From positions 1 through 22,263 of IMG/VR virus record IMGVR_UViG_3300031688_000147: a stretch of DNA of 22,263 nt. One strand, 5' to 3'. The position numbers were made by a program, and so were the translations under genes. A model generated the notes under the pieces. The model saw only the letters and a program-made list of their open reading frames with translations. It made no database searches and was not told the origin of the DNA. Origin of the DNA: a virus. Shown piece after piece: positions 1 to 19,510 of the stretch. Each line of letters starts with the position of its first letter. Within the stretch, counting starts at the first letter, position 1.

Positions 1-263
1 ATAACAAAAGTATTCTGAAAAAAACTTTTGTCTCTGTATACAGTCGAGGTATACTAGTGGCCTGTTATAGGGGGTGTAACTTTTTGAAATATAGACCCCT
101 ATATTACTGTGGTATGATCTATCATCGGTAGTTCACTTCGGGTCTCTGCGATCATCTGAGGGACCTCTGAGAAGACCGACAGTGACCGTACTCTATAGGA
201 GATGTATAACCATACATCTAAGATATTGGACGACCCTCCACGGTCCTCTGAGGGAAGCGACTC
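1..263. other. Hairpin-rich, GC-elevated non-coding stretch
   Basis: I see no convincing gene here. The stretch contains several inverted repeats. CAAAAGT/ACTTTTG lie at 5-11/24-30. TATAGGGG/CCCCTATA flank a loop at about 64-115. A long imperfect hairpin pairs CGGT/ACCG (126-129/185-188), CACT/AGTG (134-137/181-184) and GGTCT/AGACC (141-145/173-177). A perfect 8-bp stem AGATGTAT/ATACATCT lies at 200-207/212-219, and GACC/GGTC lie near 231-243. Positions 121-180 are about 53% GC, well above the neighbouring genes. It lies downstream of the leftward gene ending at 264, so it could be a 3' untranslated region, a terminator cluster or an independent structured RNA. No known RNA family was recognised. 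Confidence 0.4.
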
Positions 264-473
264 TTACTGTTTAAACTGTTTTGAGAAATGTGGTAGTTCA
301 AATGATTCAATTGACATGATATCTGATATCGTATACGTTCTCTCATGAGTAGTTAACGGTAGTTGGTTGATCACATCATTAACAGACTCTTCTTCAGTAA
401 CTGCGAATGAACTGAGAATGATATCATTAGTAAGATTTAATTCAGTAACATATTTCATAGTATAGTACTCCAT
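264..473 (-). CDS. Small early protein of unknown function (69 aa)
   Basis: This acidic, soluble-looking small protein has no recognised motif. It follows the 42-aa gene with a TAATG overlap at 471-475, which supports translational coupling from the start at 473. An internal ATG at 458 has GGAG about 8 nt upstream and would give a 64-aa product, so the start is ambiguous. It is the second gene of a short leftward unit driven by the early promoters at 633-661 and 776-804. Such small, poorly conserved proteins near early promoters are typical of T4-like phages; no function is inferred. Confidence 0.6.
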   Translation of the reverse strand: MEYYTMKYVTELNLTNDIILSSFAVTEEESVNDVINQLPLTTHERTYTISDIMSIESFELPHFSKQFKQ

Positions 474-601
474 TAGTAGTTTGTTTCAATTGACATTGCG
501 TTCTTATCGTGACCCATTTTGATCAACTTCGTACGTTCAACCTGAGCTTCCTTATACGTCTCATAGATTCCGTGTAATTCATAATAATATAGTATATACA
601 T
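473..601 (-). CDS. Small early protein of unknown function (42 aa)
   Basis: This short open frame starts at ATG 601-599 with a good Shine-Dalgarno (AAGGAT, about 6 nt upstream on the minus strand). It stops at TAA 475-473 and overlaps the next start as TAATG. The product begins MYILYYYELHG and has a polar, lysine-rich C-terminal half. It is the first frame after the early promoter whose -10 is at 633-638. Promoter, ribosome binding site and overlap with the next gene together make it more than a chance frame. Function is unknown. Confidence 0.6.
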   Translation of the reverse strand: MYILYYYELHGIYETYKEAQVERTKLIKMGHDKNAMSIETNY

Positions 602-632
602 GTAATATCCTTTAGGTTGATTATATAATAGT

Positions 633-661
633 ATTATACCATAGATTAAAAGGAATGTACA
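633..661 (-). promoter_or_regulatory. Early sigma70-type promoter (extended -10), leftward
   Basis: On the minus strand the -35 element TGTACA (656-661) is followed by a 17-bp spacer and then TGGTATAAT, with the TATAAT hexamer at 633-638. The same design recurs at 776, 5795, 9517, 20322 and 22219. It drives the 42-aa and 69-aa genes to the left. Confidence 0.85.
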
Positions 662-775
662 CCACTAATTACACTTAAATGAATATTAATTAATGTGTGT
701 GACAAATATATCACAGTATCGTAATACAATGCAGAGTCGAGTGAAGTATATCCCCTTCTCCCCGTATACTCTTTT

Positions 776-804
776 ATTATACCATAGATTCGCGTGAATG
801 TAAA
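776..804 (-). promoter_or_regulatory. Early sigma70-type promoter with TTTACA -35, leftward
   Basis: On the minus strand, TTTACA (799-804), a 17-bp spacer and TGGTATAAT (TATAAT at 776-781). It differs from the other five copies by having TTTACA rather than TGTACA. It lies 143 bp upstream of the promoter at 633, and the interval between them has no convincing open frame. It may be a tandem promoter for the same two genes or may make a short leader RNA. Confidence 0.8.
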
Positions 805-965
805 GGAAAAAGAACAGAACATGTTAACCACCGTGTGTTATTTTTGTGGGTGAGATAAAAATCGCGCGCTCTACCGAGGTCACTAGGGTCACCGATCGTC
901 CTCCCTCTATACCTAGTTTATAAGATTTACATACAGTATGTGTAGATTTGTATGTTTACATGTTA
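805..965. other. Divergent intergenic region between early (left) and late (right) transcription
   Basis: No gene is supported here. The stretch separates leftward early promoters from the rightward late promoter at 966. It contains a direct repeat of GGTCAC near 878-893 and a perfect inverted repeat ACATAC-a-GTATGT at 929-941, just upstream of the late promoter. The inverted repeat could be a protein-binding site, but this is only an inference from symmetry and position. Confidence 0.4.
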
Positions 966-973
966 TATAAATA
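966..973 (+). promoter_or_regulatory. T4-type late promoter TATAAATA
   Basis: An exact match to the T4 late promoter -10 element (TATAAATA), recognised in T4 by RNA polymerase with gp55 and gp33. It lies 24 bp before the start of the 61-aa gene, which has its own strong Shine-Dalgarno (AAGGAG, 985-990). It faces the plus-strand small-gene cassette, opposite to the early genes, as expected for late transcription. Confidence 0.75.
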
Positions 974-996
974 ATTGTACATATAAGGAGATGTTA

Positions 997-1182
997 ATGG
1001 GTGATTACATATATGAGAGTCCTGATAAGGGTAAGACTGTCTATAGGAGAGTAATGAATACGACTACGAGGGAACTTATACATACGGAATATGGTCATTA
1101 TATAAAGAAAATGATAGAACATGATACAAATAGGACATGTTGGAATGATCGTATGAAGTATTGGGGAGAATATAAAGTATGA
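997..1182 (+). CDS. Small late protein of unknown function (61 aa)
   Basis: The start at 997 (MGDYIYESPDKG...) is chosen because AAGGAG at 985-990 is correctly spaced; an in-frame ATG at 991 abuts the Shine-Dalgarno, and upstream extension to 952 would place the start before the late promoter. The product is hydrophilic and rich in charged and aromatic residues, with one cysteine (in RTCWND) and a WGEYKV end. It is the first gene after the late promoter at 966 and is followed by two small membrane proteins. No family was recognised. Confidence 0.6.
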   Translation: MGDYIYESPDKGKTVYRRVMNTTTRELIHTEYGHYIKKMIEHDTNRTCWNDRMKYWGEYKV

Positions 1183-1225
1183 GTTGGTGGATAATGTTAT
1201 ATGTGTTAACAATAGGAGTATGTTT

Positions 1226-1399
1226 ATGGATGATCGTATTAATATAGTGATGATAGTATTAGGTGTAGGGATATGTTTGGTTCTATTAATGGTATCATTG
1301 ATTGTTATTGATTTATATAAGGAACGACAATGGAGAATAAAGAATCCTGATGAACATAATATAATGAATAGGAAGATTAAAGATGATTTCAGTGAATAG
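1226..1399 (+). CDS. Small single-span membrane protein (57 aa)
   Basis: The start at 1226 (MDDRINIVMIVLG...) is favoured by AGGAG at 1214-1218 with a 7-nt gap. A later in-frame ATG at 1250 is also possible. Residues of about 7-29 form one strongly hydrophobic transmembrane segment, followed by a charged tail (LYKERQWRIKNPDEHN...). It is the second gene of the late cassette and overlaps the next gene by 17 nt. Size and topology would fit a lysis accessory protein such as a holin- or spanin-like peptide, but nothing diagnostic is seen and this is a guess from context. Confidence 0.6.
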   Translation: MDDRINIVMIVLGVGICLVLLMVSLIVIDLYKERQWRIKNPDEHNIMNRKIKDDFSE

Positions 1400-1565
1400 A
1401 ACGTTGGAAACAAGAGATCATATCATGATTGGGATCACTTCATGTATGATGTTTATATGTTATAAGATGATGATATGGTATCCGTTTATGAGTGGTATGT
1501 TATTATGGTTCAATATGAACTTCTTTAACGCGTATTGTAGGTGGCGAAGAAATGAGAATATGTAA
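1383..1565 (+). CDS. Small hydrophobic, methionine-rich membrane protein (60 aa)
   Basis: Starts at 1383 inside the end of the previous gene, with AGGAAG about 7 nt upstream. The product has a hydrophobic middle (GITSCMMFICYKMMIWYPFMSGMLLWFNMNFF, described by region 17-48) that could form one or two membrane spans, and a basic end (CRWRRNENM). It is the last gene of the late cassette and ends 11 bp before the convergent stop of the leftward oxygenase gene. Possibly part of a lysis or membrane-modifying set; function unknown. Confidence 0.55.
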   Translation: MISVNRTLETRDHIMIGITSCMMFICYKMMIWYPFMSGMLLWFNMNFFNAYCRWRRNENM

Positions 1566-1575
1566 GATATGAGAT

Positions 1576-2040
1576 TTACACAATGTAACCGAGTGAATCA
1601 AGTCGATTGTATACTTCACTCCATGGATGTCGTATACAGAACTTTAACATAAGAGTATTAACAGGTCTTGGTTCTACTGTATGAAAGAGTTCACCATTTT
1701 CAAATAAGAGACATTCATACTGAATGGGTATTCCTTCAACGTGCATTGTTGGAGTGTAATCACTATTAAGATTAATCATAATACTTGTCATATGATCTTC
1801 ATCTACATGAGATTCAATATTATTATTCTGAAAAAGATATGCGAAACGTGGAAAGTTATTCATACCGTGTATGTTTAAATCTTTCGCAACATCTTCTACA
1901 AGTTTTTCAATACCATATACTTTCCACCAACACATACGTTGGTTTTTAAATTCATACCACTTACCTTCTGTATAACGATCCCAAAACATTTTACGATACT
2001 TTTCTTTATCAATTTTATAATCAATGTGAAAACAATTCAT
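1576..2040 (-). CDS. Fe(II)/2-oxoglutarate-type oxygenase-like protein (154 aa)
   Basis: A compact double-stranded beta-helix protein is suggested by an HxD pair (H78, D80 in ESHVDED) and a distal histidine with a following basic residue (LFHTVEPRP, H120 with R125 or K133). The spacing resembles the aspartyl/asparaginyl hydroxylase-like branch. Such enzymes use Fe(II), O2 and 2-oxoglutarate to hydroxylate proteins or small molecules; the substrate cannot be read here. The start overlaps the stop of the upstream oxygenase gene as ATGA. It is the last gene of the leftward operon that begins at 5795 and the fourth oxygenase-like gene in a row. It is shorter than typical members, so a reduced core is possible. 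Confidence 0.6.
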   Translation of the reverse strand: MNCFHIDYKIDKEKYRKMFWDRYTEGKWYEFKNQRMCWWKVYGIEKLVEDVAKDLNIHGMNNFPRFAYLFQNNNIESHVDEDHMTSIMINLNSDYTPTMHVEGIPIQYECLLFENGELFHTVEPRPVNTLMLKFCIRHPWSEVYNRLDSLGYIV

Positions 2041-2759
2041 ATCTCTACTCCAAATTTAAGTAACAATCCCATTTTATTTGACCATTGTGTTCTATTACTT
2101 GCGTGTATCTGTACTGAATCGAATATGATAATATCTCGAGGTTTCCATTCAAAAGCGTTTTCAATTGACATTCCTGTAAGTCGAGTATGTTCTATATTCT
2201 GTAAATATTTATCTTTATCATGTCTATTAAATACTGATGAATTGTGTTTCTTATCAATATCTTTTCCATTTCGATCAACAAACTGTAGAGAAGAATAATC
2301 ATCATACACTTGATACTTTGACTCTTTATATGATGTACTTCCACCATAATTAAAAGCGGAACCGTAGTCAATGAGTCTTTGTTCAAAGAATGTGAGATGA
2401 TCACCAATATCGCTACCACCTATCCATAACGGAATTAAAACATTCTTATACACCGTAGTGTTGTCATCTTTTACATCTACATAATTAAAACTGTCAAGGT
2501 GAAGACCATAAGGATGTGATGTGATAAAAAAATTTCCACCATATAGTTCACCACGTACAAGTATTTTATCTCGTACAATATCATACGCTTGATTTACAAC
2601 ATCACCAGTGATGAAAATATTTCCAAGTTTATTCTTTCTTACCTTACCACCACTGAACGCAAGTTTCCATATCTTTTCGATGTCTTCATCTGATAACATC
2701 TTTTCGTGACATTCAGATTCTGATAGATTATTTCTTATTGTTTTATCGTGTAAAATCAT
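2037..2759 (-). CDS. Fe(II)/2-oxoglutarate-type oxygenase-like protein (240 aa)
   Basis: The protein carries an HxD motif (H87, D89 in YGLHLDSFNY) and a distal His with a basic residue (H219 in QIHASNRT, K229 in SNKMGLLLKFGV). This is the facial triad and co-substrate anchor layout of Fe(II)/2OG oxygenases. Its size and the long insert between the two motifs resemble the phytanoyl-CoA dioxygenase-like group, but this is a motif-level call. It overlaps the upstream oxygenase gene by 17 nt and the downstream one by an ATGA. The substrate is unknown; co-transcription with a desaturase-like gene makes lipid or small-molecule hydroxylation thinkable. Confidence 0.65.
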   Translation of the reverse strand: MILHDKTIRNNLSESECHEKMLSDEDIEKIWKLAFSGGKVRKNKLGNIFITGDVVNQAYDIVRDKILVRGELYGGNFFITSHPYGLHLDSFNYVDVKDDNTTVYKNVLIPLWIGGSDIGDHLTFFEQRLIDYGSAFNYGGSTSYKESKYQVYDDYSSLQFVDRNGKDIDKKHNSSVFNRHDKDKYLQNIEHTRLTGMSIENAFEWKPRDIIIFDSVQIHASNRTQWSNKMGLLLKFGVEI

Positions 2760-3216
2760 AATTTACACACACTTCTTCTAGTGATTCATTAAACGGTATT
2801 TGTAGATTAATTCGCATCTGATCATTATTTACAACGCGATGTCTCATCTGTGTATTAATTAACGCAGGTGTATTAATAAAGATATCAGGTTCCATCTCAC
2901 ATGGTGCGTAATTATCAGTTAATGGATATATACACACAGTATCTCGACCAGGCTTATCAGAATGCCAGTCTTGTATTGTATGAGGTTTCATCATCATAAG
3001 AAGACAATCTCTATCAAAAAATTTCTTCTGAATACGAATAAAATGTAACGCACTGATTTCACCAGATACACTTGACTTATGTACTATCCAGTCTTTTGTA
3101 TTATAAGCAGTGACAAGTAATTCAAGTCTTTCTTCTTGTGTTACAAATTCACTTAATTTAATGTGCGTTAATTGCATATCGTACAAGTCTTCTTGTGATA
3201 TCTTGTGGTGTGTCAT
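2743..3216 (-). CDS. Fe(II)/2-oxoglutarate-type oxygenase-like protein (about 157 aa)
   Basis: Motifs seen, counted from the Met at 3216: HxD at H85/D87 (DWHSDKPGRDT), distal H126 (MRHRVVNN) and R135 (MRINLQI). This is a jelly-roll oxygenase layout close to small aspartyl/asparaginyl hydroxylase-like proteins. The start is uncertain. The longest frame begins at 3255, deep in the upstream gene. ATG 3216 gives a 59-nt overlap, and ATG 3177 gives a 20-nt overlap and a shorter product; neither has a strong Shine-Dalgarno. All triad residues are kept with any of these starts. It is the third of four consecutive oxygenase-like genes. Confidence 0.6.
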   Translation of the reverse strand: MTHHKISQEDLYDMQLTHIKLSEFVTQEERLELLVTAYNTKDWIVHKSSVSGEISALHFIRIQKKFFDRDCLLMMMKPHTIQDWHSDKPGRDTVCIYPLTDNYAPCEMEPDIFINTPALINTQMRHRVVNNDQMRINLQIPFNESLEEVCVNYDFTR

Positions 3217-3862
3217 CTCTTTTATGCGATGTTGTATAGTTATTCCACACAACAAGATCTCTATCTTTCCAATGGTGAGTATGTATGTGTTTTTCTTGGA
3301 ATATGTCGTTATCTAAATATTCAACAGGTGAATAGAAAGGACTATAAAAAAGATACTCACCAAACTCGTCGTTATGATACAGACTTTTTTTCGCTTTCGC
3401 AAACCTTAAATACGTTTCCTCTTGTTTTTCTGAGTCGAAATTAAGGAATGGCCATACTGCTTTATCGTAATAGTTTTGTACTGAAAATGTTACTTCACTT
3501 TCATTCTTTATTTTTTCTTTAAGAGATAATGGTAGATCTTTCCATACACTTTTCATATTACAGAAATATGTAGGACTTGATCCTTCTTCTATTTCTACGC
3601 CATATAGTCCACCAAACTTAGGTGTAACATTTAAATGAGAACCATCACTATGCCAACCCATTTCAATTTTCTGTAAGTTAAACTTTATGTCGTCGTTACC
3701 TACAGTAATTTCTTTCATTCCAGTCAGATCTTGTTCTAGCAACTCTCCAAACTGTTTAACTGTATCTTTATCAACATCACTTAAAATACACAAATCAATC
3801 TTACCATTTGATAGATCGTTTATCGTATTATTATTTAATGTTGTTGATATATTAAATTCCAT
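3158..3862 (-). CDS. TauD/TfdA-like Fe(II)/2-oxoglutarate dioxygenase (234 aa)
   Basis: The best recognisable of the four oxygenases. It has GWHSDGSH (H71, D73) as the HxD pair, followed by a TauD-type glycine-rich strand (FGGLYGVEIEEG). The distal block WKDRDLVVWNNYTTSHKRDD carries H213, and RRLVRY at 224-229 supplies the 2OG-binding arginine. TauD-family enzymes hydroxylate small molecules such as taurine, carnitine precursors or other acids; the substrate is not deducible. The start at 3862 has a strong AAGGAG. It overlaps the preceding GNAT-like gene by 28 nt. Confidence 0.8.
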   Translation of the reverse strand: MEFNISTTLNNNTINDLSNGKIDLCILSDVDKDTVKQFGELLEQDLTGMKEITVGNDDIKFNLQKIEMGWHSDGSHLNVTPKFGGLYGVEIEEGSSPTYFCNMKSVWKDLPLSLKEKIKNESEVTFSVQNYYDKAVWPFLNFDSEKQEETYLRFAKAKKSLYHNDEFGEYLFYSPFYSPVEYLDNDIFQEKHIHTHHWKDRDLVVWNNYTTSHKRDDTPQDITRRLVRYAINAH

Positions 3863-4383
3863 TCACCGTCTCCTTTTAACGTGCATCTTATTATATACTG
3901 CCAACACTGCGGTTTATCAATATTGTTTTTACATGTGTTGTGCAAATTGTCAAGTACTACCCAGTCTTTACTAGTATATTTATTAGCGTGATCACACAAC
4001 ACATTTGCAATTCTTTTTCTTTTTAAGTTAGATTGAAATGATGTAAAAAGATAAGAATAATTGTTATCTTCTGCATATTGTATTGACCAAGGCATAATAT
4101 ATTTACTTGTATGTAAGAACGTATTATTATAAAATCTATACTTACGTGATAGGTAATACCTAGAATAAGTTCTTATACTATTGGTATCAAAATGTTGTAA
4201 ACCACAAAACGCTACAGGTTCATTGTCGTCTAACAATAATATAAAAGCTTTGTAATTATTATAAGTATCTAATATATTTTTATAATTATTACTTAGTGTA
4301 AAATTAGTAGTATAAGCTTCTTTTACTAATTTTAGAAAGCTATCAAAGTGAGTATCATCTTGTGTTAGATCTGTTATAATCAC
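3835..4383 (-). CDS. Putative GNAT-like acyltransferase (182 aa)
   Basis: The start is a GTG at 4383, overlapping the TAG of the desaturase gene (TAGTG), with no clear Shine-Dalgarno, so re-initiation after the desaturase is likely. The N-terminal half (TQDDTHFDSFLKLVKEAY... AFILLLDDNEPVAFCGLQHF) looks like the beta-strand/helix start of a GNAT fold, in which the central strand is followed by a bulge. The later acetyl-CoA loop is not clear. Known phage GNAT-like proteins modify proteins or small molecules. The assignment rests on pattern only and could be wrong. Confidence 0.4.
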   Translation of the reverse strand: MIITDLTQDDTHFDSFLKLVKEAYTTNFTLSNNYKNILDTYNNYKAFILLLDDNEPVAFCGLQHFDTNSIRTYSRYYLSRKYRFYNNTFLHTSKYIMPWSIQYAEDNNYSYLFTSFQSNLKRKRIANVLCDHANKYTSKDWVVLDNLHNTCKNNIDKPQCWQYIIRCTLKGDGEWNLIYQQH

Positions 4384-4931
4384 TATAATTTTAATCTATA
4401 AAAGATATTGGTAGACCTGGGTTTGTGATGATCTCTGTGATTTCCTTCAAACGGCGCAAGTATGTTTATAAACCATCTATTCATTGGTTTACCTTCTTCA
4501 TGTCCAAAATGATTTAGTATTCCTATTCCTGCGTATCCTAGCAGTATAGTAATTGGTGAAAAAATTATTATTGGCCATATTAAATACTTACCATATCGTT
4601 GAAAGAATTTAATTCTTTTATTTTTCATCATATCTCTTATTAATGATAAAGGCACAGGTTTATTCCATTGTGATAAAAGAACGTTCCAAGCTCCTTGATA
4701 TTTAGAAGAATGCGGATCATTAGATGTATCAGAATATTTGTGATGTAATCTGTGTATTCCAATCCAGCCTAATGGTTTATATACACCAATACATAATGCA
4801 CAAGTCAAAGACAACCATTCAAACCATGCTGATCTTTTTCCTTTGTTGTGCGCCCAATAACGATGCAGCCCTAGAGTTGCACCAATAGTTGCTAATATAA
4901 AATATATAATGTAAATATAAACAAAAATCAT
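4383..4931 (-). CDS. Fatty-acid (acyl-lipid/acyl-CoA) desaturase-like protein (182 aa)
   Basis: All three histidine boxes of membrane diiron desaturases are present: HRYWAH at 23-28, HRLHH at 60-64 and HRDHH at 165-169, with hydrophobic membrane segments at 1-20, about 40-58 and about 115-140. These enzymes place a double bond in acyl chains in the membrane using O2 and reduced ferredoxin or cytochrome b5. At 182 aa it is shorter than bacterial delta-9 desaturases (about 250-300 aa), a compact form. The start overlaps the stop of the upstream 49-aa membrane peptide (TAATG). It may remodel host membrane lipids during infection; that is inference from the family. Confidence 0.85.
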   Translation of the reverse strand: MIFVYIYIIYFILATIGATLGLHRYWAHNKGKRSAWFEWLSLTCALCIGVYKPLGWIGIHRLHHKYSDTSNDPHSSKYQGAWNVLLSQWNKPVPLSLIRDMMKNKRIKFFQRYGKYLIWPIIIFSPITILLGYAGIGILNHFGHEEGKPMNRWFINILAPFEGNHRDHHKPRSTNIFYRLKL

Positions 4932-5080
4932 TAAGATACTTGTATTGCTACGTAAATTAACATACCAAGAATACTAAGATTAATTAACATATTAACATAG
5001 TGTGGATTCGGTGTCATAATTTTCTTCCTTTCAATATTGCGAGTCATTAAATCTGTGTGTTCTATTACTTTGTGCCACAT
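4931..5080 (-). CDS. Small single-span membrane protein (49 aa)
   Basis: This short frame runs from ATG 5080-5078 to TAA 4933-4931, where it overlaps the desaturase start as TAATG. AGGAGA lies about 9 nt upstream, supplied by the second copy of a 32-bp repeat (5085-5116). The N-terminus is charged (MWHKVIEHTDLMTRNIERKK) and the C-terminal half forms one transmembrane helix (about residues 28-48). Tight coupling suggests it acts with, or is co-regulated with, the desaturase, possibly as a membrane partner. No homolog was recognised. Confidence 0.6.
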   Translation of the reverse strand: MWHKVIEHTDLMTRNIERKKIMTPNPHYVNMLINLSILGMLIYVAIQVS

Positions 5081-5084
5081 GTTT

Positions 5085-5116
5085 TTATCTCCTATACGGG
5101 TTGTGGAGGTAACAAT
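5085..5116. repeat. 32-bp direct repeat, copy 1
   Basis: Matches 5292-5323 at 31 of 32 positions (single T/C difference). Read on the minus strand it encodes the C-terminal PPQPV of the 65-aa protein and then supplies the TATAGGAG ribosome binding site for the 49-aa gene. It looks like a local duplication of a translation-initiation leader. Confidence 0.8.
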
Positions 5117-5289
5117 AATTCTTTGTATTCTCTAAGAACACCGACCATTATTGCCATATCTGCTCTATAGTTATGTGCTATATTAAGCAATTCTTTCTCA
5201 GTGGTTGCTGAACTAACAGCCGCAACCATAAGATTCTCACAAACAGTCTTTTCGATCTTTTCTAGTTTTTCAATATTATCATAAAACAT
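5092..5289 (-). CDS. Small helical protein of unknown function (65 aa)
   Basis: Starts at 5289 with a strong TATAGGAG Shine-Dalgarno given by the upstream repeat copy (5292-5323). The protein is predicted largely helical (charged heptad-like start MFYDNIEKLEKIEKTV, then alanine-rich helices) and ends in a short proline motif LLLPPQPV. Those last residues are written by the downstream repeat copy. It is the first coding gene after the tmRNA in the operon from 5795. No family was recognised. Confidence 0.65.
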   Translation of the reverse strand: MFYDNIEKLEKIEKTVCENLMVAAVSSATTEKELLNIAHNYRADMAIMVGVLREYKELLLPPQPV

Positions 5290-5291
5290 TC

Positions 5292-5323
5292 TTATCTCCT
5301 ATATGGGTTGTGGAGGTAACAAT
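5292..5323. repeat. 32-bp direct repeat, copy 2
   Basis: Near-identical partner of 5085-5116. On the minus strand it is the untranslated leader of the 65-aa gene and carries its AGGAG. Here it also forms the right arm of a perfect 7-bp stem-loop (5310-5331) that the other copy lacks. Confidence 0.8.
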
Positions 5324-5331
5324 TCCTCCAC
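5310..5331 (-). other. Perfect stem-loop in the leader of the 65-aa gene
   Basis: GTGGAGG (5310-5316) pairs with CCTCCAC (5325-5331) around an 8-nt loop. On the minus-strand transcript it lies about 20 nt before the start codon, between the structured RNA region and the first coding gene. It could be a processing site or a translation control element; there is no T-run, so it is not a classical terminator. Confidence 0.55.
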
Positions 5332-5492
5332 GCGGATGTGTTAAGTCATCACACTTTTTAATAGACTATTTTAGTTCTCTCGTGCTTCCAGCCCGCCTAT
5401 CATGTGGGTACTATACGTACTTACTTCGAATCTGCCTTATCATTCTTGACAGCCAACCCACGTCGCCACATTCCGTAGAATGTACACGCGAA
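5332..5492 (-). other. Highly structured RNA segment between tmRNA and first coding gene
   Basis: No gene is seen here on either strand. On the minus-strand transcript there is a perfect 6-bp hairpin closed by a UACG tetraloop of the stable UNCG class (5468-5483). A stem GTGGGT/ACCCAC joins 5404-5409 with 5456-5461. This stretch may be the 3' domain of the tmRNA coding piece, or a separate RNA transcribed with it. I could not fit a tRNA cloverleaf. Confidence 0.45.
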
Positions 5493-5583
5493 TCCTAGTT
5501 TTATGTAAGAGATGTTGCAACATACACTTACCTAGGAAATCTGTGGAGGATTCTGTTTCCACGCTCCTCCGGGCGCATAAGAA

Positions 5584-5628
5584 TTAAGCTGCTATAGCTA
5601 ACTCTTGAGATACATAATTGTCATTTAC
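5584..5628 (-). other. tmRNA tag reading frame (VNDNYVSQELAIAA-stop)
   Basis: Inside the tmRNA coding piece, the frame GTA AAT GAC AAT TAT ... GCA GCT TAA encodes VNDNYVSQELAIAA. The NDNY core and AA end match the style of alphaproteobacterial tags (Caulobacter: AANDNFAEEFAVAA). The likely resume codon is GTA rather than the usual GCA. The end LAIAA keeps the two terminal alanines that ClpX-type unfoldases read but has Ile before them. Confidence 0.8.
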
Positions 5629-5723
5629 AATTATAGTTTGCGTTCGCGATAACCGTGCTTACATCCGGATAACTCCAATTCACTATTTCATATCTGTCGA
5701 TCCTATTTCAACCCCATAAATTT

Positions 5724-5789
5724 TGGTGGAGTTGCCGGGTACCGCCCCCGGGTCCAGAATATCTTTCGTTCCTTTTCATTGTTATATAG
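5724..5789 (-). ncRNA. tmRNA acceptor piece with encoded CCA
   Basis: This is the 3'-terminal (CCA) fragment of the two-piece tmRNA. Transcription from the -10 at 5795-5800 should begin near 5789, so the piece is about 66 nt or shorter after trimming. It contains the 3' strand of helix 2 (near 5757-5764), the T-arm (5735-5751), the 3' strand of the acceptor stem (5728-5734), discriminator A and CCA. Confidence 0.8.
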
Positions 5790-5794
5790 TATAT

Positions 5795-5823
5795 ATTATA
5801 CCATACTTTTAAGCAAATGTACA
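5795..5823 (-). promoter_or_regulatory. Early sigma70-type promoter for the tmRNA/oxygenase operon
   Basis: On the minus strand, TGTACA (5818-5823), a 17-bp spacer and TGGTATAAT (TATAAT 5795-5800). It lies directly before the tmRNA acceptor piece. No other such promoter is seen to the left until 776, so it probably drives everything to 1576. Confidence 0.85.
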
Positions 5824-5854
5824 CCTTTTTTTTACCTTTTTTTTACCTTTTTAT

Positions 5855-5862
5855 TATAAATA
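5855..5862 (+). promoter_or_regulatory. T4-type late promoter TATAAATA
   Basis: An exact TATAAATA facing right, 26 bp before the start of the 161-aa gene and back-to-back with the early promoter of the tmRNA. It drives the plus-strand cassette 5889-7384. Confidence 0.75.
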
Positions 5863-5888
5863 GTTATGAAAAAGAGGAGTTACACACT

Positions 5889-6374
5889 ATGCCTATAATG
5901 GAAATAATGGCTGGTATTGCATTAGTAAAATCTAGTGTAGATTTTATTAAATCAAATATTGATACATGTAAAGACATAGGTGAAATTGGTAGTGCAATTG
6001 ATGGTTTATTAAGAGGACACCAAGAAGTCAATAAAAAAAGTGGTAAAAGAGGTCTAGGTGTTAGAGAACAGTTTGACACGAGCCACATTGCAAGCGAGAC
6101 TATTGACGCAAAGATTGCTGCCGAAAAGCTGCAAGAAGTTTCAATGATGATAAACATGAGATTTGGTCCAGATACCTGGAAAGAGATTCTAGAAGAACGA
6201 GCAAGACGAATCCAAGAACAAAAAGAGCACGAAAGACAGTTACGAATAAAAAAAGCAAAAGAACATAAAGAAACTATGGATGCTTTAAAAATGATTGGTT
6301 TAGTTGCACTTGCTATAGTAGCAATTATTGGTATATTGGTTGGTTCAATTTACTATTCCAGGTTACCAGTATAA
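5889..6374 (+). CDS. Coiled-coil protein with C-terminal membrane anchor (161 aa)
   Basis: The start at 5889 (MPIMEIMAGIALVK...) is set by GAGGAG at 5874-5879. The frame extends further upstream, but that part would include the late promoter. Residues 1-20 are mildly hydrophobic. About 85-130 is a strongly charged helix, probably a coiled coil (ILEERARRIQEQKEHE...). About 134-157 is a clear transmembrane segment followed by a short tail. It is a late gene; the following gene also has a membrane segment and begins 1 nt after its stop. It could be a virion or lysis-related membrane protein. No family was identified with confidence. Confidence 0.75.
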   Translation: MPIMEIMAGIALVKSSVDFIKSNIDTCKDIGEIGSAIDGLLRGHQEVNKKSGKRGLGVREQFDTSHIASETIDAKIAAEKLQEVSMMINMRFGPDTWKEILEERARRIQEQKEHERQLRIKKAKEHKETMDALKMIGLVALAIVAIIGILVGSIYYSRLPV

Positions 6375-6375
6375 T

Positions 6376-6741
6376 ATGAAATCAAGCGATTACGCATTAT
6401 TATACATTGTTTTTATATCAATTATATTAGCAAGTGTAGGTATCATGATGGAAAATGCTCATGCTGGTGCTAAACAAATTGGAAAGAAAAAAGACTACAC
6501 TCGTCAACAGAAGATACGAAAAGGCGATATAATCCTACCAAGAATGGTTACATGCAGACTTAAGAAGCGTGTTAAAACTAAATCTGGTGAAGAAGTTTGT
6601 ATATACCAAGGGCAAAATAAAACATACGAAATGGCAATTGAAAACAGATGTCCACGACAGTATAAATGTAAATATAATCCTTACGGTTCTGTACCAAATA
6701 TTGGAAGCGTTATAGATAGTTTAAATGAAGCAGTAAAATAG
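6376..6741 (+). CDS. Membrane-anchored or secreted cysteine-containing protein (121 aa)
   Basis: The start at 6376 lies one base after the upstream stop; no good Shine-Dalgarno is present, so translational coupling is likely. Residues 7-24 form an N-terminal transmembrane segment or uncleaved signal, followed by an export-compatible domain. The C-terminal half is basic and holds four cysteines (TCRLKK, EEVCIYQ, ENRCPRQYKCKYNP). Two could form disulfides outside the cytoplasm. It may act with the preceding coiled-coil membrane protein. Function is unknown. Confidence 0.7.
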   Translation: MKSSDYALLYIVFISIILASVGIMMENAHAGAKQIGKKKDYTRQQKIRKGDIILPRMVTCRLKKRVKTKSGEEVCIYQGQNKTYEMAIENRCPRQYKCKYNPYGSVPNIGSVIDSLNEAVK

Positions 6742-6751
6742 GAGAGATAAT

Positions 6752-6889
6752 ATGTTAGGTGAATCTAATGTTGGAGAAGAAAGAGAATGTAGTTATTGTG
6801 GACACAAATGCCATTGTTATTCTAGTGGCTGTCCTGAATGTATGAACGATATATGCCAAAAATGTGACTGTGGAAAAGATGATATTTAA
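6752..6889 (+). CDS. Tiny cysteine-rich putative zinc-binding protein (45 aa)
   Basis: ATG 6752 with AGGAGAGATAAT just upstream, TAA at 6887-6889. Nine of 45 residues are cysteine, arranged as CSYCGHKCHC, GCPEC and CQKCDC, with two histidines. Such CxxC pairs suggest a zinc-ribbon or treble-clef-like fold, or a metal-sequestering peptide. It is part of the late cassette between the membrane protein and the 94-aa gene and overlaps the latter by about 11 nt. No family was recognised. Confidence 0.7.
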   Translation: MLGESNVGEERECSYCGHKCHCYSSGCPECMNDICQKCDCGKDDI

Positions 6890-7163
6890 ACATGAAAATA
6901 TGAAACTAGATCTAACAACTGCATCTAAAGGGAAATTATATAAAGATGGCAAACTCATTTTTATAGGTGACGGATATAGAGCAATTACAACAATGGTCAG
7001 TCAGTCACAAGATCCTGAACCTGTAAAATATAAGTTTAATGCGCAATTAACTATGAGAGAGAAAACTAAGTTCTCTAAAGCTGCTGACATTGAAACTTTA
7101 CGAAAACAAGCAATGGCTAGTTTTTCTCAACAAGAACTCGTTAAACATTCAAAGAAGAAATAA
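6879..7163 (+). CDS. Small conserved-looking protein of unknown function (about 94 aa)
   Basis: Three starts are possible: 6864, 6879 or 6900. ATG 6879 has TGGAAAAG just before it and gives a short overlap with the Cys-rich gene. ATG 6900 would begin at the fold-like part MKLDLTTASKGKLYKDG. The N-terminal half looks like a small beta-rich domain (KGKLYKDGKLIFIGDGYRA). The C-terminal half is lysine-rich and helical (REKTKFSKAADIETLRKQAMASFSQQ). It is a late-cassette gene; no family was recognised. Confidence 0.65.
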   Translation: MIFKHENMKLDLTTASKGKLYKDGKLIFIGDGYRAITTMVSQSQDPEPVKYKFNAQLTMREKTKFSKAADIETLRKQAMASFSQQELVKHSKKK

Positions 7164-7165
7164 AG

Positions 7166-7384
7166 ATGAGTCATGCTTTTCTACTTATGGTATATTTAGG
7201 TTCTCGTATAGAAAGTCAAGACATGTATTTTGCTGACATTAATCAATGTAAGTACTTTGCTGAAAGATTAAATAATCAACCAGGTGTTCCTAATAAGACA
7301 GCAAGAGAAGATGCGCCTAAGTTCCTATCATATACAGCGATATGCGTACCTAAGCGCATCAACGAAAAAACTAAAGTTTATTAA
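7166..7384 (+). CDS. Small protein with N-terminal hydrophobic segment and two cysteines (72 aa)
   Basis: Starts 2 nt after the preceding stop. A short hydrophobic N-terminus (MSHAFLLMVYLGS) is followed by DMYFADINQCKYFAERLNNQ and SYTAICVPKR. The two cysteines in the C-x-YFA and AICVP contexts recall the signal-bearing 88-aa protein at 19234-19500 (DCYEYV...AIFCVNEE). Both may belong to one small exported disulfide-bonded family; this is a visual resemblance only. It is the last plus-strand gene of the late cassette. Confidence 0.65.
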   Translation: MSHAFLLMVYLGSRIESQDMYFADINQCKYFAERLNNQPGVPNKTAREDAPKFLSYTAICVPKRINEKTKVY

Positions 7385-7488
7385 GCTATACGCAGTTGCA
7401 AACGATAGTTCAGTATCTTATGAACTAAAGCGCGTCTACGAGCTCGAACAAACATCTTCCATTGAAATGGTCTGTATGTGTAAGTCAT
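7381..7488 (-). CDS. Candidate tiny arginine-rich peptide (35 aa)
   Basis: On the minus strand an ATG at 7488 is preceded by GGGGAGGG with a 6-nt gap and followed by 35 codons to TAA at 7383-7381. The product is very basic (FVRARRRALVHK and further R/K; nine R/K of 35). An exact TATAAATA lies about 85 bp upstream on the same strand (7573-7580). The frame fills the otherwise empty gap between convergent genes. It is short and may be chance; a plus-strand frame also crosses this gap. Confidence 0.4.
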   Translation of the reverse strand: MTYTYRPFQWKMFVRARRRALVHKILNYRLQLRIA

Positions 7489-7572
7489 GAGTCACCCTCC
7501 CCTAGTTATTGGTTAGAGTGCGTTCCTTCAGCGATTGCTTACTTCCGCCCTTACGGGTGAACGTTATAACAT

Positions 7573-7580
7573 TATTTATA
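7573..7580 (-). promoter_or_regulatory. Possible late promoter TATAAATA, leftward
   Basis: An exact TATAAATA on the minus strand just past the end of the methyltransferase gene, pointing at the candidate 35-aa peptide and then antisense into the late cassette. In AT-rich DNA a chance match is possible. Confidence 0.35.
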
Positions 7581-7586
7581 TAAATT

Positions 7587-8180
7587 TTACTTTACAATTT
7601 TAATAATGTAGCTATCAGGTTTGTTTTCTTCCCTATAATCATGATGAGTAACATTGTATTTACTGATAGACTGAATAAGAGCATTCCATTTTTCTATTGT
7701 AAAATCGTCATTCTTTGTTATTTGATCAGCAACAAAGACTGCTTGCATTCCATCATCATCTAAATTCCACACATCTTCAATATAATAATTGTTCGTGAAC
7801 TCAATAAGATTTTCAAAAGTTAAACGTTGACTTTCTGGTGTATGCTGTCCGTCATCAATAATAAAATCAAATTGAATACCTAAATCTTTAAAATATTGTT
7901 TGCATTCAGCACTAGTGCTATCTAATTTAGCATAATTAACATAAGGATTTCTAAGCACCGATATAGCACCTGGATGCTTTCTTTCAAATGTATCAATTGC
8001 ATAAATCGTAGCATCAGGGAAATACTCTAACCACGCTCTTATGCTTTCACCATGAAGTATTCCTACTTCTAAAATATTAAGTTTATTTTGTCGTATTGGC
8101 TTAAAATCTGATTCATATAACTTGCTGTAAGAATGATGTTGTTTAGTAGTCTTAAACTTTTTAAATAAATCTTGTAACAT
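7587..8180 (-). CDS. Class I SAM-dependent methyltransferase-like protein (197 aa)
   Basis: Motif I is seen as LNILEVGILHGESIRAW (34-50), followed by an acidic strand end IYAIDTF (59-65) and the FDFIIDDGQH motif (105-113). This is the layout of small-molecule or sugar methyltransferases related to the macrocin-O-methyltransferase-like and Methyltransf_24-like groups. It probably methylates a sugar or glycan group using S-adenosylmethionine. It is the last gene of the operon from 9517 and starts by TAATG overlap with the DUF3310-like gene. A shorter, degenerate-looking relative lies at 12167-12580. Confidence 0.75.
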   Translation of the reverse strand: MLQDLFKKFKTTKQHHSYSKLYESDFKPIRQNKLNILEVGILHGESIRAWLEYFPDATIYAIDTFERKHPGAISVLRNPYVNYAKLDSTSAECKQYFKDLGIQFDFIIDDGQHTPESQRLTFENLIEFTNNYYIEDVWNLDDDGMQAVFVADQITKNDDFTIEKWNALIQSISKYNVTHHDYREENKPDSYIIKIVK

Positions 8181-8599
8181 TAATCAGTATCGTACTTGTA
8201 TTCTTTATTTGTATCAATATCAGCAAATTTATCATATTGTTCAATATCATGCACATGTAACATCATAACTGCATAATGTAATACTTTCATAACATCTTTT
8301 CTAGCATCATCTGTATTACCTTTTTTACCATATCTTTGAGCGTATTTCATAATATTACCAATACAAAATCCAGCACCATGTCCGCCATCTATAATGAATT
8401 CAGTTGCTTGAAACTGTTCTCTAGAATAATGACCTTTATAAGTTTTATCAATAACATCCATTAACTCTTCAACATACACGTTTTCATTGAACTTATAAGA
8501 TATAGTTGGTTTTTTGTGCGCCTCATGAACAACCACAGATTTTAAATCATCATCACTTAGTCTTATTTTCTGCATTAGTTTTTCTCTTAACTCTTTCAC
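8180..8599 (-). CDS. DUF3310-like protein (139 aa)
   Basis: The start is GTG at 8599 with AAAGGA upstream. The C-terminal half matches the DUF3310 pattern of phage proteins: an F-x-x-GN-x-x-KY-x-x-R core (GFCIGNIMKYAQRYGKKG, about 77-94) then a D-x-x-K-AL/VLHY helix. DUF3310 proteins are common in phage nucleotide-metabolism regions and their biochemical role is not settled. The first 65 residues are less typical. It overlaps the upstream 63-aa frame by 47 nt. Confidence 0.65.
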   Translation of the reverse strand: MKELREKLMQKIRLSDDDLKSVVVHEAHKKPTISYKFNENVYVEELMDVIDKTYKGHYSREQFQATEFIIDGGHGAGFCIGNIMKYAQRYGKKGNTDDARKDVMKVLHYAVMMLHVHDIEQYDKFADIDTNKEYKYDTD

Positions 8600-8744
8600 T
8601 ATCGTTGTCCTTTACTATTTGTTTTGCGTTATTAATCCAGTCAATGACTGCTTGATTATTTTCGTGTAGTTCACCTGGTTTTATTTTATTGCCGTGTTGC
8701 TTAACAATAAATTTAGCTGTGTCTAATTCAGAATCAGTTGTCAT
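8553..8744 (-). CDS. Small protein of unknown function (63 aa)
   Basis: Starts at 8744, immediately after the SleB hydrolase stop (TAAATG), and ends inside the DUF3310-like gene. The protein is hydrophilic and lysine-rich at the end, with a WINNAKQ helix. The long overlap makes the C-terminal 15 residues suspect, but the adjacent start supports it as a real operon member. No family was recognised. Confidence 0.5.
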   Translation of the reverse strand: MTTDSELDTAKFIVKQHGNKIKPGELHENNQAVIDWINNAKQIVKDNDSERVKRKTNAENKTK

Positions 8745-9293
8745 TTATTTTTCCCATCTATAGAATATATGTTTACCAATAGTGACAGTTTGTGTTTTCT
8801 TTTCTGCCCATGATGGATACACATAATCTGCATGATAGTGAGTAGCACCTCTAGTAAAATCAAATACTAATATTGAATTATATCCATAATATATTTTGGC
8901 TGCAATTCCTATAATGTATTCATACAAGTCTTTATCTTGTGATGGTATTATATCTTTCTTACCATCACAGTACCAACTAAATTGACATCTGTTTTTTAAA
9001 GGATGCCATTTACCATGAGTTTCTAACCACCATTTAGAATGTTGCGCTTGATACACTACAGAACATACTGTGTTTGGATATCTCTTATCTAGAACTCTGT
9101 TCATAGTAACGTATCCTACGGCAATCATACCTTGAATAGATTGATTACGAGCTTCCCAGTACATGTTTTTAGCCATGCATGCAACCTCTTGATTTTTTAG
9201 AGAGTTTGCATGTACAGGAGTGCAATAAGTTAACACTAACATTCCAAATATGCCTAGTGCTAAACCTTTAATCGTATTAGCGTATGGCTGCAT
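8745..9293 (-). CDS. SleB/CwlJ-type cell-wall hydrolase with signal peptide (182 aa)
   Basis: Matches the Hydrolase_2 (SleB) pattern: AKNMYWEARNQSIQGMIAV (probable catalytic Glu at 47), NRV...YPNTVCSVVYQ, then CQFSWYCDG and ATHYHADYVYPSWA. The N-terminus (about 1-29, ending VHA before NS) looks like a signal peptide or signal anchor, so the enzyme is probably exported. The start at 9293 overlaps the upstream stop (TAATG); a start 4 codons earlier is possible. These enzymes cleave peptidoglycan glycan strands, here presumably for lysis or wall remodelling. It sits in an early-type operon, not in the plus-strand late cassettes. Confidence 0.85.
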   Translation of the reverse strand: MQPYANTIKGLALGIFGMLVLTYCTPVHANSLKNQEVACMAKNMYWEARNQSIQGMIAVGYVTMNRVLDKRYPNTVCSVVYQAQHSKWWLETHGKWHPLKNRCQFSWYCDGKKDIIPSQDKDLYEYIIGIAAKIYYGYNSILVFDFTRGATHYHADYVYPSWAEKKTQTVTIGKHIFYRWEK

Positions 9294-9481
9294 TACGCAT
9301 GCCACATGTTAGTTACGTCCTCAGCAGCTTGTTCAGCATCTATAAAGTTATAGTAGTATGATCTTACACTTTCAACTCTAGACAATGCTTCTGTTAGTAC
9401 ATTAGAATCTTCAATAATATCTACTGCTTGCTCGTTAAAGTCTTCTACTGAATCCATGAAATAAGTGTTTGTATTTGACAT
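9293..9481 (-). CDS. Small acidic protein of unknown function (62 aa)
   Basis: First gene after the early promoter at 9517, with GGAGAATATA before ATG 9481. It is acidic (MSNTNTYFMDSVEDFNEQAVDIIEDSN...) and probably helical. It ends by overlapping the SleB hydrolase start. Early leader genes of this type often encode host-interacting peptides; no function is inferred. Confidence 0.6.
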   Translation of the reverse strand: MSNTNTYFMDSVEDFNEQAVDIIEDSNVLTEALSRVESVRSYYYNFIDAEQAAEDVTNMWHA

Positions 9482-9516
9482 ATTATATTCTCCGCTTTTT
9501 TGATTTTAATATATAT

Positions 9517-9545
9517 ATTATACCATACTTTTTAACGAATGTACA
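9517..9545 (-). promoter_or_regulatory. Early sigma70-type promoter, leftward
   Basis: On the minus strand, TGTACA (9540-9545), a 17-bp spacer and TGGTATAAT (TATAAT 9517-9522). It drives the 62-aa, SleB, 63-aa, DUF3310-like and methyltransferase genes. Confidence 0.85.
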
Positions 9546-9588
9546 CTAAAAAATGCACTTATTTTAAAGTTTGTTGTGAACATGTTAA

Positions 9589-10209
9589 CTAGTCCATTTT
9601 AGTTTTAGAGTCATACGTTACAATATGTACATTATCTGCTACTTTGACTTTAAGTGCGTTATGAACGTGATGTAATACGAATTTAGTGTTAGGGAATTCT
9701 TTAAACATATTTTCCCACACTGGTCTCCAATTGTTAGCCAGTCTGTGGCTGTTCATATTGCCTCTATCAGAATTAAGATAAAAATCAGAACAACTTCTTA
9801 AGTTAAAATCAAAAAGTGAATCGAATCCATATAAATGTACTTCATCTGCTTTAATTTTCTTTGATGCATAATGTACAGCCATATGACCGCAATTAAAATC
9901 TGTGTAGTTTGATACGTATTTTGGAAGTTCAGTATAGAATTCTTTTACTTGATGTGAATGTTTTACGTAAAAAGTAGGTTGTTGATCCATCCAAATCTTA
10001 GGTCTCATGCCTAAAATCCAATCACCAGGAATAGTTAATGATCCTTCATGCAAAGCTCTCATCATTTTAAAATCTACCATGATAGTACCATATGCGCCAG
10101 GAACTGGCCATGGTGGAATATTGCATGTTAATTTCATTCCAACTCTTTGCTCTTTAAAATACAAACTGGATTGATCACCATTTCCTATAATGTGAACTAC
10201 TTTACTCAT
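9589..10209 (-). CDS. Putative glycosyltransferase-like protein of the glycan island (206 aa)
   Basis: The N-terminus VVHIIGNGDQSSL resembles the GNGPS-type nucleotide-binding start of DUF115/sialyltransferase-like (GT42-like) proteins. A later KADEVHLYGFDSLFDF block resembles the HLYGxD strand of the same group. The reaction is not deducible; a role in sugar transfer or sugar activation is inferred from neighbours. It starts with AGGAG and an ATGA overlap with the preceding glycosyltransferase, and it is the last gene of the long operon. Confidence in the family is modest. Confidence 0.5.
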   Translation of the reverse strand: MSKVVHIIGNGDQSSLYFKEQRVGMKLTCNIPPWPVPGAYGTIMVDFKMMRALHEGSLTIPGDWILGMRPKIWMDQQPTFYVKHSHQVKEFYTELPKYVSNYTDFNCGHMAVHYASKKIKADEVHLYGFDSLFDFNLRSCSDFYLNSDRGNMNSHRLANNWRPVWENMFKEFPNTKFVLHHVHNALKVKVADNVHIVTYDSKTKMD

Positions 10210-10859
10210 AACATACTCCTAATTTTAGCTTTACCTTTTGCACCAGTCCAATGCATAATTCTAGTTTTCCCCACATATCCATCATTCTCTACCTGTAATC
10301 TTAACACATTGTATTCGTTAGGCAAATCGGTTATTGCACCAATTTTAGTAATAGGAGTTAATAGTTTATCCAAAACTTCCTGATCACCTGCTTGATCTTT
10401 ATTCTTTTTAATTGCTTCTACCCATCTACTTAATATTATAGGTTTATCTATAAATCCTACAACTCCTGAATTATGCCAAAGGTGTCCACGTCTTGTAGTC
10501 CACGGTTTATCTTCAACCATTGCCAGTTTATTAGGTTCTATTAGATCAAATATGCCATCGATATTATCTTTTACTTCACAATCAGTATCTAACCACACTG
10601 TCTTTTTAGCTGGACATTTATACATTGACAATGGTTTCTTAAACCAACCAGACTCATCAACTTTTGACAAATCTAGCACAGCGTGAACATTCTCACGCAC
10701 AATCTTTAAACTTAACTCGCTAATACCAAAGTTAGCAAAGACTATTGGAACTTTAGTATGTTTTTTTAAATTCTTTAAAAACCATGGTAAAATCCACTCA
10801 TGGCTTTTATCGCATCCAGTTAAGAATGCTTTATTATATAATTTCATAGGTTTCGCCAT
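10206..10859 (-). CDS. GT-A-type glycosyltransferase-like protein (about 217 aa)
   Basis: A hydrophobic strand ending in a DxD motif (KKTVWLDTDCEV, D91/D93) is the nucleotide-sugar/metal site of GT-A glycosyltransferases. The following region with GVVGFI and DQEVLDKLL resembles GT8-like enzymes. The frame extends 28 codons further upstream, but that part overlaps the previous gene by more than 100 nt; starts at 10859 (MAKPMKLYNK) or 10847 (MKLYNK) are likelier. Sugar donor and acceptor are unknown. It belongs to the glycan island. Confidence 0.65.
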   Translation of the reverse strand: MAKPMKLYNKAFLTGCDKSHEWILPWFLKNLKKHTKVPIVFANFGISELSLKIVRENVHAVLDLSKVDESGWFKKPLSMYKCPAKKTVWLDTDCEVKDNIDGIFDLIEPNKLAMVEDKPWTTRRGHLWHNSGVVGFIDKPIILSRWVEAIKKNKDQAGDQEVLDKLLTPITKIGAITDLPNEYNVLRLQVENDGYVGKTRIMHWTGAKGKAKIRSML

Positions 10860-11475
10860 AATTATGTTTTGCGTAGCATCCTTGTTTTTGTTGTATTGTA
10901 GTAAAACTGTCTCTGGCTTCTGCTGGCCATGGATAGTATTCACCTAGTGTAAACTTACTTGAATGAATGTATATGTCTGTTGGACCTGCAGAAAACGCAC
11001 ATTCATCGATTAGTTGTTGTGCGCCTTTTGGTGTTAATCTATATGCGTGTGCACCTGGAAAGTATGGTTTTGATACTAATGAACCATAACCTATGAATGA
11101 CGGTGTATTAAATTTACCGTATGATGGTTTACCTAAGTTTAGGATATCAAACATCATCATTTGTGGAATGTCTCCTACTAGCACTGCGTCATGTTCAAAT
11201 ATAACTATAGGCTCTTTAGATCTGACACACTTTTTCCATAAACTATGATGACTTAAAAAACCTGCTATACAATTTTCTGGTCTACTATATATTTCATTAA
11301 ATGCTGCAGAAGGATATTTAAGTTTCTTTAACTCTTCATATACATCACAGTTTTGTGGAGTATATGCTTTATGTTTGTTTATTTTATAACCAAATACTAA
11401 ACCACTCTTTACACATCTATCAGCAACTTGCACTGATCTTTCATTTTCCATTATTGTTATTACATACATTTTCAT
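10834..11475 (-). CDS. Glycosyltransferase family 25-like protein (213 aa)
   Basis: Carries the GT25 hallmarks: GFLSHHSLWKKC (72-83) followed by IVIFEHDAVLV (90-100), where the acidic motif binds the metal-nucleotide sugar. GT25 enzymes such as LpsA and Lex1 add hexoses to lipooligosaccharide or collagen. The C-terminal part (GAHAYRLTPKGAQQLID) fits the family as well. ATGA overlap with the upstream GT25 gene. It is one of two adjacent, diverged GT25 genes, suggesting an internal duplication or successive transfer steps. Confidence 0.8.
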   Translation of the reverse strand: MKMYVITIMENERSVQVADRCVKSGLVFGYKINKHKAYTPQNCDVYEELKKLKYPSAAFNEIYSRPENCIAGFLSHHSLWKKCVRSKEPIVIFEHDAVLVGDIPQMMMFDILNLGKPSYGKFNTPSFIGYGSLVSKPYFPGAHAYRLTPKGAQQLIDECAFSAGPTDIYIHSSKFTLGEYYPWPAEARDSFTTIQQKQGCYAKHNYGETYEII

Positions 11476-12170: not shown

Positions 12171-12580
12171 TTCTTTACCTCTACGCCGTCACTGGTTTCG
12201 ATATAGTATTTTCCAATACAATATCTTCTTAAATATTGATATCTAGATGTTTCGTTGTCTATTATAAAATTAAATCTAGGTTTATTCCATGTATTTATCA
12301 TAACATCATTAATACTTTTTTGATCGTTTATATCGCACCTTGACCAGAATATTCTTTTCTCTTCCAGGTATTTGTATTTATTAGGTTGTAAATTGTTGAA
12401 TTCGTCGATACAATAGATATTCGAATAAGACAAATATTTGTGCCAGACTGATATACTCGTACCAATTCCAATTTGTAATATGTTTAAAGGTTTATTGCGA
12501 TGTTCAAATAATTCTTTTTCATAGAACAAAGCATGCTTTTGTCGGTTTGACTTATACCTTTGCATTAACGTAGAGAGCAT
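12167..12580 (-). CDS. Shortened methyltransferase-like protein (137 aa)
   Basis: The first 110 residues parallel the methyltransferase at 7587-8180: MLxxLxxxYK start, PLNILQIGIGTSISVW (31-46), IYCIDEFN (55-62) and FNFIIDNET (103-111). The second acidic motif reads IIDNET rather than IIDDGQH, and the protein ends soon after, lacking the C-terminal strands of a full class I fold. It may be inactive, a regulatory partner, or act on an unusual substrate. The gene starts 2 nt after the upstream stop and ends by ATGA overlap. Confidence 0.6.
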   Translation of the reverse strand: MLSTLMQRYKSNRQKHALFYEKELFEHRNKPLNILQIGIGTSISVWHKYLSYSNIYCIDEFNNLQPNKYKYLEEKRIFWSRCDINDQKSINDVMINTWNKPRFNFIIDNETSRYQYLRRYCIGKYYIETSDGVEVKK

Positions 12581-12581
12581 G

Positions 12582-15770: not shown

Positions 15771-15774
15771 AATA

Positions 15775-18024: not shown

Positions 18025-18039
18025 AACAAAATCCTTATT

Positions 18040-19500: not shown

Positions 19501-19510
19501 TACTACACTC

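Follow-up and report, generated by a model that had tools for sequence, protein, structure and literature searches.

The window analysed here is a 22,263-base viral fragment from IMG/VR (IMGVR_UViG_3300031688_000147, positions 1-22,263). Six genes occupy its minus strand from 4931 down to 1576 and overlap end to end, in the order E (desaturase), F (GNAT-like), D, C, B and A:

4383..4931, minus strand: gene E, short membrane fatty-acid desaturase (Pfam PF00487, 1.1e-11; three His boxes)
3835..4383, minus strand: gene F, GNAT-like, 182 aa (12-member family; weak PF00583 match in one member)
3158..3862, minus strand: gene D, predicted TauD/TfdA-family 2OG dioxygenase, 234 aa (Pfam PF02668, 6.1e-17)
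2743..3177, minus strand: gene C, predicted small Asp/Asn-hydroxylase-like 2OG oxygenase, 144 aa from the ATG (orthologues; hhalign to the A family)
2037..2759, minus strand: gene B, HxD...H...K protein, apparently phage-specific, 240 aa (invariant residues in viral relatives)
1576..2040, minus strand: gene A, predicted small 2OG oxygenase of an Asp/Asn-Pro hydroxylase-like superfamily, 154 aa (AF2, Foldseek, triad)

The initial annotation had described four consecutive 2-oxoglutarate (2OG) oxygenase-type frames in 1576-3862, coupled by overlaps. All four ORFs are real, lie on the minus strand and recur on a sister contig, IMGVR_UViG_3300031721_000035, which matches window positions 1-19226 (19.2 kb) at 99.9%, is divergent past that point and has the same oxygenase block. 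The block is larger than first noted, extending upstream to the GNAT-like gene (3835-4383) and the desaturase gene (4383-4931). Genes A-D overlap by 4, 17 and ~20 nt, and F starts with a GTG that overlaps the desaturase stop. The longer ORF of gene C (2743-3255) opens with a TTG at 3255; since alignments with its homologues begin at the ATG at 3177, the TTG is probably wrong and the ATG is the probable start, which gives the 20-nt overlap with D. These overlapping starts and stops suggest that translation of the block is coupled, in agreement with the earlier proposal, the genes being probably co-translated.

Active sites and family assignments of the block genes

2OG oxygenases hydroxylate their substrates, or oxidise them in some other way, with the help of Fe(II), O2 and 2OG. 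A loose HxD...H...R/K pattern turned up in 7–13% of shuffled versions of A-D, so that the motif alone is weak evidence and a motif-only case was rejected; it is conservation among homologues that makes the case strong. The HxD...H triad is invariant in the close homologues of all four proteins (27/27 for A, 7/7 reliable relatives for B, 3/3 for C and the 5/5 closest for D), and the loss of triad residues that the initial annotation had raised was not seen in them. A double-stranded beta-helix is indicated for A by AF2 and Foldseek, for D by the Pfam TauD match and for C by profile similarity to A. We consider the prediction that A, C and D are 2OG oxygenases sound, and the same prediction for B likely. 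No meaningful match was obtained for A, B and C in Pfam and PHROGs, nor for A-D by tblastn against 50,697 phage records, where A-C, searched as far as E 10, gave no more than weak partial matches.

Gene D is TauD-like, as first annotated, scoring 62.8 bits with PF02668, for which the cut-off is 27. A phmmer search of PDB returned a TfdA-type match at 1e-5. Residues H71, D73, H213, R224 and R228 are present in the five closest phage members, whereas in a more distant D-like clade the iron-binding Asp of the HxD is replaced, giving HxN or HxH. The nearest NCBIfam models are the natural-product dioxygenases PtlD and ScoE, with matches far under their curated cut-offs; that to the ScoE-type fatty-acid oxygenase/decarboxylase reached 1e-6. 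Single-sequence viral scans with D, and likewise with C, found the sister contig only. The HxN/HxH clade of phage TauD-like proteins, which retain the distal His and Arg, includes the cultured phages P-HM2 and Mosig, and its members lie at:

L147, 1924-2760
L149, 9335-10156
L154, 1060-1881
L146, 4653-5495
L170, 1371-2285
L171, 1371-2285
L017 (P-HM2), 1084-2145
L176 (Mosig), 12485-13294

In gene A, residues H78, D80 and H120 are invariant in all 27 rows of the alignment, even though some members are just 15–24% identical. The AF2 model built from this 27-sequence alignment (mean pLDDT 94.1, pTM 0.89) confidently predicts a prolyl/aspartyl-hydroxylase barrel. Its best solved neighbours in Foldseek were structures of the Pseudomonas putida prolyl hydroxylase (4j25/4iw3; E 2e-6, prob 1.00), and PHD2 and AspH also matched with a prob of 1.00; in the viral structure library, the neighbours were cyanophage and giant-virus 2OG oxygenases. 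Identity to the closest solved folds, the P. putida enzyme and PHD2, is ~10–20%, and A differs from both in lacking an Arg at position +9 from the distal His.

An Arg at this position is the usual 2OG anchor, and 25 of the 27 A-family members have it. Window A and its nearest homologue, on contig L145 (69% identical), carry Thr there (T129 in A), and only these two among the 27 have an Arg four residues before it (R125 in A); A also carries K133. The distal His with a basic residue initially assigned to A is borne out as regards H120, but the canonical +9 Arg is absent, with R125 and K133 present instead. Judging from the alignment, either the 2OG anchor has been relocated or cosubstrate use has changed, and A, devoid of the usual 2OG-binding Arg, could be altered or inactive. 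Both A and the L145 homologue look intact, and the pair shows a dN of 0.25 with synonymous change saturated.

Gene C has orthologues at L145:2707-3204 (46%) and L146:6538-7017 (43%), and H98, D100, H139 and R148 (at +9; numbering of the longer ORF) are kept in all three sequences. Compared with the A family by hhalign, C gave a probability of 83% and an E of 9e-6, with the HxD and distal His aligned, and A and C accordingly fall into one small Asp/Asn-hydroxylase-like superfamily. The four frames had been thought to differ in fold, which does not hold for A and C, given this similarity. The motif layout of the PF05118 family (AspH, LpxO, OlsC) is common to both, yet neither A nor C was matched by PF05118 in Pfam or by the NCBIfam models.

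Gene B had been regarded as PhyH-like, but PF05721 matched neither B nor its seven relatives up to E 1, and PhyH membership was ruled out. Relatives of B occur on ~11 viral contigs at 25–32% identity; in the seven reliable ones that were aligned, H87, D89, H219 and K229 are invariant, K229 being at +10 from the distal His. B had no Pfam, PHROG or PDB match, a scan of genome contigs gave no relative, and its AF2 model, built on 2 sequences, reached a pLDDT of 34. B is probably a 2OG oxygenase of an unclassified family, which appears to be phage-only.

As for the partner genes, the His boxes of E are HRYWAH, HRLHH and HRDHH, and its homologue in Mosig (34%) is annotated FA_desaturase. The F family comprises 12 aligned proteins, a single one of which matches PF00583, at 0.0058, making F weakly GNAT-like. 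An OlsB-type ornithine-lipid pathway was considered and dropped, as the GNAT-like family did not match the OlsB family PF13444. Where measurable among relatives, dN/dS was ~0.06–0.14 for B, D and the desaturase, and the block genes appear to be under purifying selection, maintained and exchanged as modules.

Oxygenase islands in related viral contigs and known phages

Relatives of the block were gathered through scans for the RuBisCO-like and desaturase neighbours, followed by real alignments of the A and B families; artificial degenerate alignments used as queries did not reach them. Most related viral contigs hold blocks of 2–7 HxD...H genes of the same superfamilies, usually with a desaturase and a GNAT gene, and F recurs in most of these islands. 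In 18 loci retrieved with A/B-family queries, for which the desaturase was not used, a desaturase was found in 12 and a GNAT-like gene in 15, some of the loci missing partner genes being truncated. PF05118 was matched by 16 of 66 island proteins and LpxO (lipid A hydroxylase) by 5, up to 1.2e-6; the LpxO scores are modest and far from full family membership.

C, A and B are adjacent in seven loci (L146, L168, L169, L170, L171, L172 and L175), as read from gene position and pairwise matches; the profile labels of A and C merge, hence the use of an HxD...H filter. Two of these loci, L146 and L168, have the order desaturase, 2OG, GNAT, 2OG, TauD-like, 2OG, methyltransferase, C, A, B, with the genes on one strand and mostly overlapping, and the L168 block runs directly into virion-like and glycosyltransferase-like genes. 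In the other islands, gene content, order and strand are shuffled. At L154:3061-4038, two A-superfamily oxygenase domains are fused in a single 326-aa frame. The islands L110 (G005 13647-20275) and L139 (G036 26809-32041) also hold other enzyme-like genes, which by eye from their translations are radical-SAM-like, short-chain-dehydrogenase-like and sulfotransferase-like.

The closest named relatives of the window are T4-like phages of SAR11. Its RNaseH is 44% identical over the full length to that of HTVC008M and is also matched by other T4-like phages; moreover, the window encodes a permuted alphaproteobacterial-type tmRNA (5542-5838, minus strand), and the cultured Pelagibacter phage Mosig EXVC030M has a tmRNA too. 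Both features favour a T4-type pelagimyovirus, perhaps Mosig-like, that probably infects SAR11-type ocean bacteria; with neither a capsid nor a terminase gene present in the fragment, host and clade are inferences.

The premise that a T4-like marine phage has just one 2OG oxygenase proved wrong; such phages routinely have many. In HTVC008M, five or more 2OG-Fe(II) oxygenases are annotated, including one adjacent pair, Mosig (MT647606) has at least 14, three of them adjacent and overlapping at 40880-42717, and for cyanomyoviruses a single row of Table 3 in PMC3037559, that of the 2OG-Fe(II) superfamily, lists up to 5. HTVC008M and the cyanomyoviruses (T4-GC 101, 155, 104 and others) resemble the window in possessing several divergent 2OG oxygenases, partly as adjacent pairs (PMC3037559), but these gave no significant tblastn match to A-D within the 50,697 phage records.

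Mosig, a cultured T4-like pelagimyovirus, resembles the window in having a tmRNA and a block of desaturase, GNAT, TauD and Asp/Asn-hydroxylase genes. This block (60954-54701) reads Asp/Asn hydroxylase, desaturase, aminotransferase, FMN reductase, peroxiredoxin, hypothetical, TauD, methylase, GNAT and Asp/Asn hydroxylase, and then tail fibres. Its aminotransferase, FMN reductase, peroxiredoxin and methylase are additional to what the window has; neither B nor C was seen to have a clear orthologue in it, and its TauD has HSN for HxD, unlike D. The Mosig genome announcement does not discuss the oxygenase and desaturase genes.

Pelagiphages have eight non-orthologous types of 2OG oxygenase, near one another but not adjacent (PMC9599517). 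Pelagipodophages share with the window the presence of several such genes close together, whereas theirs are non-adjacent and accompanied by ferrochelatase, and those of the window are adjacent, overlapping and accompanied by desaturase and GNAT (PMC9599517). Surveys of pelagimyophages mention an Asp/Asn hydroxylase among the core genes and, for members from freshwater, a stearoyl-CoA desaturase (PMC7029224). The presence of several 2OG oxygenases per marine T4-like phage is already known; we found no description in the literature of the desaturase-GNAT-oxygenase block as a unit.

Possible functions of the block

We favour, with a probability of roughly 0.4, a modular cassette in a surface-modification region that tailors acyl- or amino-lipids or other envelope molecules of the host. 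With the genes overlapping in the order desaturase, GNAT-like, D, C, B, A, expression of the desaturase would be coupled to that of the four 2OG oxygenases, each of which would hydroxylate a substrate by means of Fe(II), O2 and 2OG; the cassette would act during infection alongside the glycosyltransferase-rich region nearby, and related phages would swap individual oxygenases in and out. That the enzymes are active, that they work in one pathway and that they act on lipids or the envelope are all inferences. Envelope chemistry is weakly pointed to by the desaturase, the PF05118 and LpxO matches among the island proteins (16/66 and 5), the ScoE-like character of D and the LPS-type glycosyltransferases nearby. 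Counting against it, the LpxO and ScoE matches fall short of full family membership, the best structural neighbours of A are protein prolyl hydroxylases, and no match links the GNAT-like family to acyltransferases of the OlsB type.

The order desaturase-2OG-GNAT-2OG-...-C-A-B, fixed in one phage group, argues for a functional unit, whereas the differences in content and order between islands argue against a fixed pathway; given that content and strand vary, there need be no such pathway. The multi-step hydroxylation of one substrate by the four enzymes, suggested in the initial annotation, is unproven. It is doubtful, in our view, that a conserved pathway of up to seven 2OG oxygenases with a desaturase, a GNAT-like enzyme and a methyltransferase, including the classless B family and the A lineage with its relocated Arg, yields a hitherto unseen hydroxylated lipid or metabolite in infected SAR11-type cells.

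The shuffling of islands in order, strand and content would also fit separate protein hydroxylases clustered by a gene-exchange hot spot, each acting on a different host or virion protein, such as translation factors, ribosomal proteins or tail fibres. The top structural neighbour of A is the Pseudomonas prolyl hydroxylase whose structure was determined together with EF-Tu, and tail-fibre or structural genes follow directly on the blocks of L168 and Mosig. However, fold similarity does not give the substrate, and the recurring membrane desaturase and GNAT-like gene are left unexplained. We hold this explanation to be rather unlikely, though a serious rival.

The other serious rival, of slightly lower probability, is a phage-encoded biosynthetic cluster: the oxygenases would join with the GNAT, methyltransferase and aminotransferase in building or altering a soluble metabolite or peptide for which the desaturase supplies an acyl part. 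Small-molecule tailoring would suit the Mosig and L168 blocks equally well. The aminotransferase, FMN reductase, methylase and peroxiredoxin of the Mosig block speak for such chemistry, as do the methyltransferase located between oxygenases in L168 and L175 and the proximity of D to PtlD and ScoE among NCBIfam models; yet neither a scaffold-forming enzyme (synthetase, ligase, PKS) nor a precursor peptide was seen in the loci read, and island composition is not fixed.

A role in metabolic modulation, in which the enzymes would serve chiefly to use up 2OG or O2 or to sense the iron or nitrogen state, has been put forward for cyanophage 2OG oxygenases (PMC3037559), and such genes co-occur with ferrochelatase in pelagiphages (PMC9599517). 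The window block has no ferrochelatase, and the divergent, individually conserved active sites and the partner enzymes suggest distinct substrates rather than bulk consumption of 2OG, which makes this role very improbable. Least probable of all is the hydroxylation of nucleobases or another DNA/RNA modification, set aside because, although other 2OG enzymes (TET/JBP, AlkB) modify nucleic acids, the block has no family link to these and the genes next to it encode a desaturase and a GNAT-like protein rather than nucleotide enzymes.

Few accessory genes are as common in marine phages as those for 2OG oxygenases, which recent time-series papers highlight with no known substrate (PMC11561400, PMC13184970). 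Their recurrence in overlapping blocks with the same partners makes of these orphan genes a unit that can be tested, and a cultured phage-host pair, Mosig on Pelagibacter ubique HTCC1062, carries a version of it. Should the tailoring cassette remodel lipids or the envelope, phages would have a new means of altering the ocean's most abundant bacteria.

Other features of the window

A glutamine riboswitch (7517-7565, minus strand) lies on the same strand as the tmRNA, with plus-strand genes between them; the two together are rare in phages of this group (PMC9004378). The run of genes at 9589-18024 (minus strand), made up of GT8/GT25-like glycosyltransferases, Methyltransf_24 proteins and one nucleotidyltransferase, is similar to the surface-modification genes of pelagimyophages. 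Within these coordinates, the protein encoded at 14065-15153 (minus strand) belongs to the RuBisCO family (PF00016, 9e-23), with relatives encoded on 165 viral stretches. Its best NCBIfam matches, rubisco_III (8e-32) and OiaX (7e-29), are all far under the equivalog cut-offs, and it is probably RuBisCO-like rather than a true RuBisCO. Finally, short repeats of ~55–110 bp, 75–85% identical and apparently intergenic, occur at 9479-9589, 5773-5833, 776-844 and 22204-22257 and also in the sister contig where it diverges from the window; they are possibly shared promoter or regulatory elements.
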